A stretch of DNA of 64,000 bases from SAR202 cluster bacterium bin22 (GTDB taxonomy: Bacteria; Chloroflexota; Dehalococcoidia; Lucifugimonadales; UBA3495). Made by a program: the position numbers and the translations under genes. Where the stretch lies: NCBI GenBank assembly GCA_002238505.1, contig MPMM01000001.1:310001-374000 (forward strand). Direction: 5' to 3'. The notes below the pieces were generated by a model. That model did not search any database. It was not told the origin of the DNA and saw nothing but the letters and a program-made list of their open reading frames with translations. This document shows, one piece after another, positions 102-3,952 of the stretch; position 1 is the first letter of the stretch, and every line of letters begins with the position of its first letter.

Positions 102-1058
102 TCAGGAAACGGGAGCCAACAGGGATTCCACGAACTGGCTGGCATCAAAGGGAGCGATGTCTTCCAGAGATTCCCCGGTGCCGATGAAAAGGATTGGCAC
201 ATTCAGTTCCTGTTTAATTGCCAGCACGATTCCGCCACGAGCGGTGCCGTCCAGCTTGGCGAGAAAAATACCGGTGCAGCCTACGGCTTCCGTAAAGGCC
301 TTGGCCTGGGTCAACCCGTTCAGGCCTGTGGTGGCATCCAGGGTCAGCAAAACTTGCTGGGGTGCCTGTGAATCCAACCGATTAATTACCCGGTGGACCT
401 TTTTCAACTCCTCCATCAGGTTGGAGCGGGTGTGAAGTCTCCCGGCGGTGTCCACAATAAGGACATCGGCGCCTCTTGCCTTGCTGGCCTGCCACGCATC
501 GTAGGCCACCGCTCCCGGGTCTGCCCCGGGTTGGTGGCTGATAACTTCTACGCCTGCCCGGTCTCCAAGGATTTCCAGTTGCTCCTCGGCGGCGGCCCGG
601 AAGGTGTCGGCGGCTCCCAGTACGACCTTCTTGCCTTCACGGGTGAAGTGGTGGGCCAGTTTGGCGATGCTGGTGGTCTTGCCAACGCCATTTACCCCCA
701 CCATCAAGATTACGTAGGGCACACCACTGGAAGGATGTTCTTCCCAGGTTTCCGCGACGACGCCGGAGGCCAGATTGCCGGCCAGGGTTTCTTTCAGAAG
801 AGCGAATGCGGTTTCAGCGTCGGTTATGCCTTCATTGCGAATCTTGTCCTTAAGTTCGTCCAGGATTTGCAGGGAAGTTTCCACGCCGACGTCGGCGGAA
901 ATCAGGATTTCTTCAAGTTCTTCCCAAACCGTTTCATCCAGATCAGAGGAGCGGAGAACGTCAAGAATGCGCCCGAACCAGCGCTCCCTGGTCCGTTTGA
1001 CGCCGTCGTCGGTTTTTTCCCGGTTATTTTCCCTGTTTCGTTGAAAGAATGAGAGCAT
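102..1058 (-). CDS. ftsY: Signal recognition particle receptor FtsY
   Basis: FtsY is the SRP receptor GTPase that docks ribosome-SRP complexes at the membrane for co-translational insertion. The 318-residue protein has a helical N domain (about 20-100) and a G domain: G1 GVNGVGKT at 121-128, DTFRA at 151-155, DTAGR at 203-207 and AKLDG at 267-271. The N-terminus (MLSFFQRN, then a charged stretch) is the short form without a long acidic A domain, which supports this ATG as the start. It is the last gene of a minus-strand operon after a DsbA-like gene and rnc. Its first 157 bases lie inside the 3' end of the rnc frame. Confidence 0.97.
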
Positions 1059-1867
1059 TGAGTATCGCTTATGTAGCTTCCTTGTTGATTTAGATGGGCT
1101 TGCGCCCGGGCCATTTCAGCACCGTTGGCTTTGCTTCTGTCGCCTTTTGACTGGCTGGATCGAGGCTGACGTGTATCGAGCATCGATTGCCGGTCAAGGG
1201 CAATCTGGGCTGCGGCCCGTTCGGCGTCCGCTTTCTTGTTTCCGGTACCCTGACCCAGTATCTCATCATCGACCAGTACCTGGACGGTGAAAACGGGTTG
1301 ATTATCGGGACCTTCGGTGGAGACCAACTCGTAACGAGGAGTCGTGCGGCCTATGCCCTGAATCAGTTCCTGCAAGCGGGACTTGGGATTGTCAACGGGA
1401 CGTCCCCGGCGAAAAATGTCGGCCAGATCTGGCTCCAGACTGCGCAGAACAAGATCGCGGGCAGCTTCGTAACCCTGGTCCAGGTAAATGGCGGCAACAA
1501 TCGACTCGAAGGCTTCTTCCAGGATGGACTCGCGGTCATGGCCGCCGGACTCGACCTCTCCCTTGCCAAGGGCCAGATGCTTGCCGATGGACAGTCTTCG
1601 GGCAGCCCTGGCCAGGCTGGGACGGCAAACCAGCGAAGAACGCCCCTTGGTCAATTCCCCTTCGGTTATATGGGGGAGGTTGGCGTAGAGTTCCGTTGAG
1701 ACGATTAATTCCAGAACCGCATCTCCCAGGAACTCCATTCTTTCATAGGAGTCCAGAGATGATCCGCCGTGTTCGTTGAGATAAGAACGATGAACCAGGG
1801 CCTGTCGCAACAGGCCCTGGTTGTTAAAGGTCAAACCAAGGCTGGTTTCCAGGTCTTCGATGGCCAA
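902..1867 (-). CDS. rnc: Ribonuclease III with long C-terminal tail
   Basis: RNase III cleaves double-stranded RNA in rRNA and mRNA processing. The 321-residue frame holds the signature ERMEFLGDAVLE at about 42-53, catalytic acidic residues in EEAFES (about 117-122), and a dsRNA-binding domain at about 160-226. The family usually ends near residue 220-250. Here a polar, low-complexity tail of roughly 90 residues follows, and its last 51 codons overlap ftsY out of frame. The start is TTG at 1867, 21 bases after the stop of the upstream DsbA-like gene. The tail may be real or may result from an indel near the original stop. Confidence 0.95.
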   Translation of the reverse strand: MAIEDLETSLGLTFNNQGLLRQALVHRSYLNEHGGSSLDSYERMEFLGDAVLELIVSTELYANLPHITEGELTKGRSSLVCRPSLARAARRLSIGKHLALGKGEVESGGHDRESILEEAFESIVAAIYLDQGYEAARDLVLRSLEPDLADIFRRGRPVDNPKSRLQELIQGIGRTTPRYELVSTEGPDNQPVFTVQVLVDDEILGQGTGNKKADAERAAAQIALDRQSMLDTRQPRSSQSKGDRSKANGAEMARAQAHLNQQGSYISDTQCSHSFNETGKITGKKPTTASNGPGSAGSGAFLTFSAPLIWMKRFGKNLKKS

Positions 1868-1888: not shown

Positions 1889-2521
1889 TTAAATGATGCC
1901 GTGAGGCCACGGCGGGGACGGGCGTTTCACCTCGCCCACATGCTGTGCGTCGGTAATTACCCGAGTCAGGGACTCGTAGATTTCGCCAGACTGTTCGGCC
2001 GGGGGAATATGCATCTTTACGAAGGCCGAACTGCCGTTGGGGAAGACATAAGTCGGGACGCCAAAAGCGCCGTAGGTCTCGACTGCCTCGGTGTGACTTT
2101 CGGCAATTTCCCTGAGCAGATCAGGGTCTGCCAGGTCTTCCCGGAAGCGGGCCACATCGATGCCGGAGTTGGCGACCGCTTCTTCCATCACTTCCATCTC
2201 GGTCAGGCTGCGCCGCTCTTCGTGGCGCAGTTTGAGGAGGGCGATGAAGAAAGATTCAAAAGCTTCCTTACCCTGACGCTTGGCGGCAAGCCCGCAGCGA
2301 TGGGCCAGCAGAGTGTTATCCGAGCCATCCAGTGCGCCCGGTTGTTCCCAGAACTTGAAATCTTCGCCCTTGTCGCTGTTTACCTGCTCAAGGGAGAAAG
2401 GTTGCCAGTCAACATTGACCTCGTGATCGGTGGTCTCACGTACCTGCGCCAGCCACATGGCAGCGTTATATACGTAGGGTCAACGAAAGTCGTAATAGGT
2501 TTTGAAATCGGTCTCGGACAT
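1889..2521 (-). CDS. DsbA/FrnE-family thiol oxidoreductase, candidate selenoprotein (UGA at codon 14)
   Basis: This is a DsbA-fold (2-hydroxychromene isomerase/FrnE-like) protein. The conserved part runs from the ATG at 2458, but that start has no Shine-Dalgarno and lacks the active site. Reading upstream in frame gives ATG at 2521 preceded by AGGAGGTG (2527-2534), then MSETDFKTYYDFR, a TGA at 2482-2480, and PYVYNAAMWLAQ. The family motif at this place is DF-x-CPYV, so the TGA replaces the redox Cys. Full length is 210 residues, normal for the family. The cis-Pro loop GVPTY is at 154-158. There is no second Cys, so it would be a single selenol/thiol type. TGA is an ordinary stop elsewhere in the window. 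The alternatives are a nonsense mutation or a sequence error. Selenocysteine insertion is inferred, not shown. Confidence 0.75.
2438..2476 (-). promoter_or_regulatory. Candidate bacterial SECIS hairpin downstream of the UGA
   Basis: The mRNA right after the UGA folds into two stacked stems. The outer stem pairs ACGUA (2475-2471) with UACGU (2442-2438). The upper stem pairs CGC (2465-2463) with GCG (2449-2447) and GCC (2461-2459) with GGC (2454-2452), with U2462 facing U2451/G2450. The apical loop is AUGU (2458-2455). The loop lies 22-25 bases after the UGA. The E. coli fdhF SECIS has the same plan: a bulged U a few pairs below a loop that contains GU. SelB binding is inferred. Confidence 0.55.
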
Positions 2522-2548
2522 GTCGACACCTCCTGTTCGATTGTCCCG

Positions 2549-2577
2549 ATTCTAGCACATACTCCCTTGCCCGCCAA
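2549..2577 (-). promoter_or_regulatory. Sigma70-type promoter for the DsbA-like/rnc/ftsY operon
   Basis: Read on the minus strand, TTGGCG (2577-2572), a 17-base spacer and TAGAAT (2554-2549) form a good promoter, with TGC just before the -10 box (extended -10). It sits upstream of the ATG at 2521, which supports that start over the internal ATG at 2458. Confidence 0.6.
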
Positions 2578-2650: not shown

Positions 2651-3952
2651 ATGAACCCTCTTTCGGACGGCCCTCCACCTGCTGCCTTTTCCCACTATCC
2701 TATCGAAAGTCTGGTCGATAGAGACAACCTTCCCCTGTACCTGGCGTTAAAGGAACTGGCTTCTGAACGTGATCTTACCGTCTATCTGGTGGGAGGTCCG
2801 GTAAGGGACTGGTTGCTGGGCGTTGCCTGCCGAGACCTGGACTTCGTTGTGGAGGGCGACGCCACGGCACTGGGTAGAACCCTGGCCAACCGGGTGGGCG
2901 GGCGTGCCATACTGCATAACAGATTCGGTACTGCAACGGTGGAACTGGGAGCAGGGCACATTGACCTGGTAACCGCCAGGAGCGAGGCTTACCCCGTTCC
3001 GGGCTCGCTCCCCGACGTGGTACCTTCAACCATAAACGATGACTTGGCGCGGCGGGATTTTACTATCAATGCTATGGCCTTGCCTCTGCGAGGCGGCGAC
3101 CTGACGCCGGTCGATCAGGCGGGAGGTCAGGAAGACCTGAAACTTGGCCGCATCAGGACAATTCACCCCCAGAGCTTCTCGGATGACCCAACCCGTCTTT
3201 TTCGAGCTTTGAGGTACGAGCAGAGGTTGGGGTTCGGGCTGGAGGAGGGGACGGGAGAGCAGTTTCGTGCCGCGGTGGCTGGCAGGTACTGTGACACCGT
3301 AAGCGGAGACAGGATCCGTCGGGAACTGGAGAAGTTCCTGGAAGAGATTGACCCCGCCAAGCCGATATTGCGGGCCGTGGAAACGGGGCTGTTGCCCTCG
3401 GTTTTTCCGGCTCTGGTACAAAGCGATTATGTTGGCAGGCTGGCGGCGTCATCGATTGACAATCAATTGATGATTTGCTACCCCCTTTCCTGGATTGTGG
3501 CCCTGGTTTATCCGCTTTCGTCAGAAGAAGCCGAAGGTTTGATTGGCCGGCTGAACATGCCGGGCGCCTGGGCCAGGGCTGTGCGTGAATCGGTCAAGCT
3601 GCACCAACTTGAGACGGCGCTGAGCGGTACGGGGATGGCAGCTTCGGAACTTCACCGATTCCTGGAAGATTTCGAGATTTGGACCATAGGCGCAGTTGCC
3701 CGAATTACCGATAGAGCCGTGGTGGCAGGAAATCTGGAACGCTACATTGAGGAGTACCAGGACCTGTCGCCGGCCCTGAACGGAAATGACCTGCTGGCTA
3801 TGGGAGTACCGCCCGGCCCCGCCGTTGGAAAGGCGCTGGCATCCCTTCGTGACCTGCGAATTGACCGGAAGGTCCTCTCCGAAGAAGAGGAGAGGGAATG
3901 GGTCCGGGAACTGTTGGCCGTGGAGAAGTACGGGACCTCCCAGGGGACCTAG
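2651..3952 (+). CDS. cca: CCA-adding tRNA nucleotidyltransferase / poly(A) polymerase family protein
   Basis: This is a class II nucleotidyltransferase that adds or repairs the tRNA CCA end (or polyadenylates RNA). The head domain has GGPVRDWLL at about 48-56 and the metal-binding DLDF at about 62-65. RRDFTINAMA follows near 134-143, then the RNA-binding motif DDPTRLFRALRY. A helical C-terminal region completes 433 residues, the usual length of the family. Sequence alone cannot separate CCA-adding from poly(A) activity. It is transcribed divergently from the DsbA-like operon. Confidence 0.92.
   Translation: MNPLSDGPPPAAFSHYPIESLVDRDNLPLYLALKELASERDLTVYLVGGPVRDWLLGVACRDLDFVVEGDATALGRTLANRVGGRAILHNRFGTATVELGAGHIDLVTARSEAYPVPGSLPDVVPSTINDDLARRDFTINAMALPLRGGDLTPVDQAGGQEDLKLGRIRTIHPQSFSDDPTRLFRALRYEQRLGFGLEEGTGEQFRAAVAGRYCDTVSGDRIRRELEKFLEEIDPAKPILRAVETGLLPSVFPALVQSDYVGRLAASSIDNQLMICYPLSWIVALVYPLSSEEAEGLIGRLNMPGAWARAVRESVKLHQLETALSGTGMAASELHRFLEDFEIWTIGAVARITDRAVVAGNLERYIEEYQDLSPALNGNDLLAMGVPPGPAVGKALASLRDLRIDRKVLSEEEEREWVRELLAVEKYGTSQGT

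Follow-up and report, generated by a model that had tools for sequence, protein, structure and literature searches.

The window analysed here, a stretch of 64,000 nucleotides from SAR202 cluster bacterium bin22, carries on its minus strand (1889..2521) a gene for a DsbA-fold protein of 210 residues in which selenocysteine (Sec) is very likely inserted at an in-frame UGA (2482-2480, codon 14); this confidence concerns the insertion and excludes catalytic details. The first-pass annotation had placed Sec at the position of the active-site cysteine, and this assignment is supported by the Sec machinery of the genome, the alternation of TGA and Cys codons, constraint on both sides of the codon, and a covarying hairpin that is mostly lost in the Cys forms. 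The product is probably a cytoplasmic oxidoreductase, predicted to use Sec14 as its single catalytic chalcogen.

Reading frame and translation start

The frame extends from an ATG at 2521-2519 to a TAA at 1891-1889 and contains TGA only once (2480..2482, minus strand). Re-reading the window reproduced the coordinates reported initially, together with the length of 210 residues when TGA is counted as an amino acid, and also located the proposed Shine-Dalgarno sequence, an AGGAGG at 2529..2534 (minus strand), 7 nt before the ATG. By sequence reading, a candidate extended -10-like element, TGCTAGAAT, lies further upstream at 2549..2557 on the same strand, and its trace (C*NR in translation) also appears in the closest relatives, L047-L051.

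As the first-pass annotation had anticipated, the longest table-11 open reading frame starts at ATG 2458 and leaves out the active site. Translation from that codon, with TGA as an ordinary upstream stop, would also fit the finding that most members of that clade to which the window belongs retain Met21. Such a start is nevertheless highly improbable. Among nine close relatives, pN/pS is 0.94 over the 13 codons upstream of ATG 2521 and falls to 0.17 over codons 1-13, with 0.25 over codons 15-40; the stretches before and after the TGA are therefore translated in one frame. Moreover, codon 21 is not a start codon in several relatives (e.g., GTT in L020 and L035), and the structural model indicates that the short form would lose strand 1 along with the active site.

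Codon 14 across Chloroflexota

The gene is present in 32 genomes of the class set, which comprises 294. Codon 14 is TGA in 24 of them and TGC in seven, with one not read. The same in-frame TGA, which the first-pass annotation had proposed to look for in related genomes, occurs in 9 further GTDB contigs (65-97% identity) and in 6 genomes or loci of other Chloroflexota classes, where the remaining family loci read carry TGC or TGT. Over all 63 loci read, the codon is TGA in 39 and Cys in 24, and no third alternative appears; every relative read that lacks TGA has the Cys expected at position 14. The recurring TGA can be traced through dozens of independent genomes, down to approximately 35% protein identity, and, as judged from these sequences, its recurrence at one codon is far beyond chance.

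One lone stop within a frame usually points to a pseudogene or to a sequencing error, in this case TGC read as TGA. Here, both explanations can be virtually dismissed: the same TGA is found in dozens of genomes, no other stop occurs at this codon, and purifying selection acts on both sides of it. One apparent case of UAG recoding, a TAG counted in G058, proved to be the ordinary end of the frame, and the active-site codon of that gene is TGC.

On a tree of 61 rows, which is unrooted, the Sec/Cys label requires 7 changes, compared with 18.8 when labels are shuffled. The relatives form a natural series of Sec/Cys replacements in which the hairpin is lost alongside.

Selenocysteine machinery and the genetic code

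The host genome, which belongs to Chloroflexota (Dehalococcoidia) (4.39 Mb, 97% complete; the window corresponds to G000:C16:310001-374000), encodes the components of Sec synthesis and insertion. A search for selA, selB, selC, and selD, suggested at the outset, recovered all four: a tRNA-Sec (67.5 bits; anticodon tca in ARAGORN), a full-length selB (348 bits, positions 2-580 of 581), selA (542 bits), and selD (386 bits). The selD gene (G000:C57:40142-41065) has a single in-frame TGA, which falls on the Sec position known for this gene (LSHCAG-U-AAK), and is itself predicted from its sequence to encode a selenoprotein. Read by eye, the sequence after this TGA could fold into a hairpin whose loop is GGUAC.

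In the class set, selB accompanies the TGA form in 23 of 24 genomes, the single genome without it being 63% complete, and is present in 3 of 7 genomes with the Cys form (Fisher p ~0.005, computed by hand and ignoring relatedness). Over the whole class set, 203 of 294 genomes have selB, and Sec use is therefore common in these Dehalococcoidia.

The frame would be equally open if TGA stood for Trp or some other standard amino acid, through a code change or SelB-independent readthrough. This reading is extremely improbable. TGA ends 13 of 44 long non-overlapping open reading frames of the window and hence serves as a stop codon there, in agreement with the earlier statement that it is a normal stop elsewhere and that the code has not changed. 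In addition, the residue replacing it in relatives is always Cys, and the genome encodes the tRNA-Sec, selA, selB, and selD described above. Comparative data argue strongly instead that SelB and Sec-tRNA-Sec would decode the UGA at 2482-2480, aided by a hairpin at ~2465-2447.

A putative SECIS hairpin

The core stem-loop of this putative bacterial SECIS (CGCUGCC-AUGU-GGC[U]GGCG; 2447..2465, minus strand) lies within the open frame and spans approximately 14-33 nt past the UGA. The bSECIS model specifies a stem of at least 4 bp and a loop of 3-9 nt located 16-37 nt from the UGA (PMC13188914). The window hairpin fits this geometry, with a 7-bp stem, one bulge, and a 4-nt apical loop that starts 21 nt past the UGA. 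The model also asks for a G at loop position 1, position 2, or both (PMC13188914). Most Sec relatives have it (GUGU, AGUUUG, GGUCU), whereas the apical loop of the window hairpin (2455-2458) is AUGU, a form shared by 8 of 9 clade members, with no G in either position; L037 and L038 have AUUU, likewise without an early G. This non-canonical loop sits beside a full-length SelB in the window genome.

Support for the stem comes from comparison among rows. The fixed stem of 7 pairs, scored over 22 diverse Sec rows, gives a covariation of 0.244 versus 0.144 +/- 0.023 after shuffling (0 of 500 shuffles), and the true register exceeds slid registers in both paired cells and covariation score. Six Cys rows give no covariation signal at the hairpin. 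The window clade is 100% paired in the bulged-U register, and in four species one of the pairs has changed on both sides, from C-G to U-A. Relatives with TGA but no hairpin and with decayed downstream frames had been named in the first-pass annotation as a pattern that would speak against Sec. Instead, at least four of five core pairs are kept in 36 of 38 Sec rows versus 3 of 23 Cys rows (the rows are related, and the p-value of 6e-11 therefore implies more independent events than there were), and the frame after the TGA is constrained; the weak spot of the hairpin is its loop, which lacks the early G in the window clade.

Mean energy z-scores against synonymous recoding are -2.0 in the window clade, -1.7 in other Sec rows, and -1.1 in Cys rows. 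For the window sequence by itself, this energy is not significant (fraction 0.067), and single-sequence folding is not unusual relative to shuffles (z ~ -1). The hairpin claim rests on fixed-structure counts because RNAalifold returned no consensus.

Protein family, fold, and active site

The protein matches Pfam DSBA (PF01323; 64.2 bits versus a cut-off of 25.6, E 1.7e-17) and the Rv2466c-like family (PF22234; 36.3 bits versus 27, E 8.3e-9). Invariant columns in an alignment of 36 rows include D11, Sec/Cys14, P15, and F153-G154-x-P156-T157. The window motif, D11-F-R-U14-P-Y-V17, belongs to a family motif U-P-[YFWH]-[VA], in which residues 16-17 are [YFWH][VA] throughout the 36 rows. No second Cys is conserved in this alignment, and none of the relatives read has Cys as the fourth motif residue. 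In an AlphaFold2 model with a mean pLDDT of 91, Sec14 stands just ahead of helix 1. The FGVPT segment (2051..2065, minus strand), which contains the invariant residues 153, 154, 156, and 157, forms the cis-proline loop and would, in a thioredoxin fold, be expected to lie opposite Sec14.

The best match among solved structures is DR2335 of Deinococcus radiodurans (7dk9; Z 24.5, rmsd 2.1 Å over 196 residues), followed by Rv2466c (Z 17.9), GST kappa (15.6), and FrnE (14-15). DR2335 is described as conserving one Cys only, and no function has been reported for it (PMC8945050). Its structures (PDB 7dk9/7dka) share with the window protein the fold over 196 residues, one Cys at the Sec position (CPYA), and an RRPxP-type C-terminus; it differs in having Cys for Sec, and identity is 26%. 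FrnE (DR_0659; PDB 5xwh, 5cnw) has the same DsbA-type thioredoxin fold but carries a CXXC motif, often with an additional C-terminal CXXXXC (PMC8945050), and is clearly the more distant of the two in structure. The original motif assignment (DF-x-CPYV in the family, DFR-U-PYV here) holds for Sec at the Cys position; the motif contains no second Cys, and the FrnE label does not hold. FrnE membership is rejected for two reasons: the active site of FrnE and DsbA is CXXC, whereas the relatives read have neither CXXC nor UXXC but one lone Sec/Cys ahead of P-[YFWH]-[VA], and DR2335 is the nearer structure. TsoY, a UxxV selenoprotein (NF047643, PMC13188914), was discarded as an identity, given that the window protein has no NCBIfam match even at E 10.

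Membership in the DsbA family would be compatible with a selenoprotein acting as a two-chalcogen DsbA/FrnE-type oxidase or isomerase, and the window protein does contain one further Cys, residue 76, that could act as the resolving residue. This mechanism is very unlikely, given that position 76 is Ala, Ser, or another residue in relatives, even in L047 at 97% identity, and that the alignment conserves no second Cys. A one-chalcogen mechanism is the most likely because there is no resolving Cys; with resolution of the selenenylsulfide by an external thiol or the thioredoxin system, it has roughly an even chance of being correct. In this single-chalcogen scheme, the selenolate of Sec14, placed at the N-terminal end of helix 1, would be the nucleophile, and its target would be a disulfide, a mixed disulfide of low molecular weight, or some other electrophile. 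The resulting selenenylsulfide would then be freed by the external thiol or thioredoxin system. In some lineages, Cys stands in for Sec.

Rv2466c, a mycothiol-dependent nitroreductase, resembles the window protein in fold and Pfam match. It differs in its two active-site Cys (CPWC), a motif absent here; for mycothiol ligase, no match in the window genome scores above cut-off. Genes for mycothiol, bacillithiol, and ergothioneine (EgtD), which could hint at the reductant, were sought in this genome (~97% complete), and none was clear, with no equivalog above cut-off. Two MshC-like matches were rejected as mycothiol ligase, as they score higher as cysteinyl-tRNA synthetase (cysS). The genome has two cysteinyl-tRNA synthetase-like genes, at G000:C53:434151-435350 and G000:C16:927112-928245.

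Gene neighbourhood

The gene is followed on the minus strand by rnc, encoding RNase III (1062..1867; TIGR02191, 234 bits), and by ftsY (102..1058), identified by its open reading frame and synteny as the third gene of the conserved row. Upstream, a divergent cca-type nucleotidyltransferase gene lies on the plus strand (2651..3952; Pfam PolyA_pol). The order cca (divergent)-dsbA-rnc-ftsY is found in most members of the same order, with both Sec and Cys forms. Part of the class shows it as well; no instance was seen in other Chloroflexota classes. The table-11 rnc frame extends approximately 150 bases into ftsY in another frame (window 902-1058), so that the two genes overlap or ftsY starts further downstream. 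In G264 and G282, frames of 670-685 aa suggested fusion to a large protein; these are GC-rich frames open through the start, with rnc next, and are not conserved.

Relation to known selenoproteins and outlook

DsbA-like selenoproteins with a UxxC motif have been known since 2005 (PMC1088965). The GOS survey of Zhang and Gladyshev (2008) listed 'DsbA 3' (pfam01323, UxxV) with 5 sequences and 72 Cys homologues (PMC2398784), and a 2026 review has an entry 'DsbA-like protein form 2' (PF01323, DxxUP, MDP6049977.1), with reference to Peng et al. 2016 (PMC13188914). By motif and domain description, the window protein shares pfam01323 and UxxV with the former, and PF01323 and DxxUP (here DFRUP) with the latter. 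'DsbA 3' comes from a marine metagenome, for which the main text names no taxon such as Chloroflexi or SAR202 (PMC2398784), and 'DsbA-like form 2' carries a crotonase/enoyl-CoA hydratase annotation that is absent from the window protein. Because both entries fit the motif, the gene is probably not new at the family level, and the first-pass designation as a candidate new selenoprotein was too strong in that respect (PMC2398784; PMC13188914). On these descriptions, earlier marine surveys have very probably already predicted selenoproteins of this family, which limits the surprise.

What the present analysis adds is the Chloroflexota-wide distribution of Sec and Cys forms, the conserved cca/dsbA/rnc/ftsY order, a confident fold, and the odd AUGU SECIS loop of the window's clade. 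A broader proposal is tentative and rather unlikely as a whole: that these proteins constitute a Chloroflexota-wide class of single-chalcogen DsbA-fold selenoenzymes with a one-selenol mechanism, and that Sec is inserted in the window clade through a SECIS loop without the canonical G. If true, use of the AUGU loop would imply altered or relaxed SelB recognition. Standard annotation would shorten the gene in these Chloroflexota genomes, with loss of the active site. DR2335 offers a structural template, and the data raise the testable question of what a DsbA fold can do with a lone selenol when a resolving Cys is lacking.
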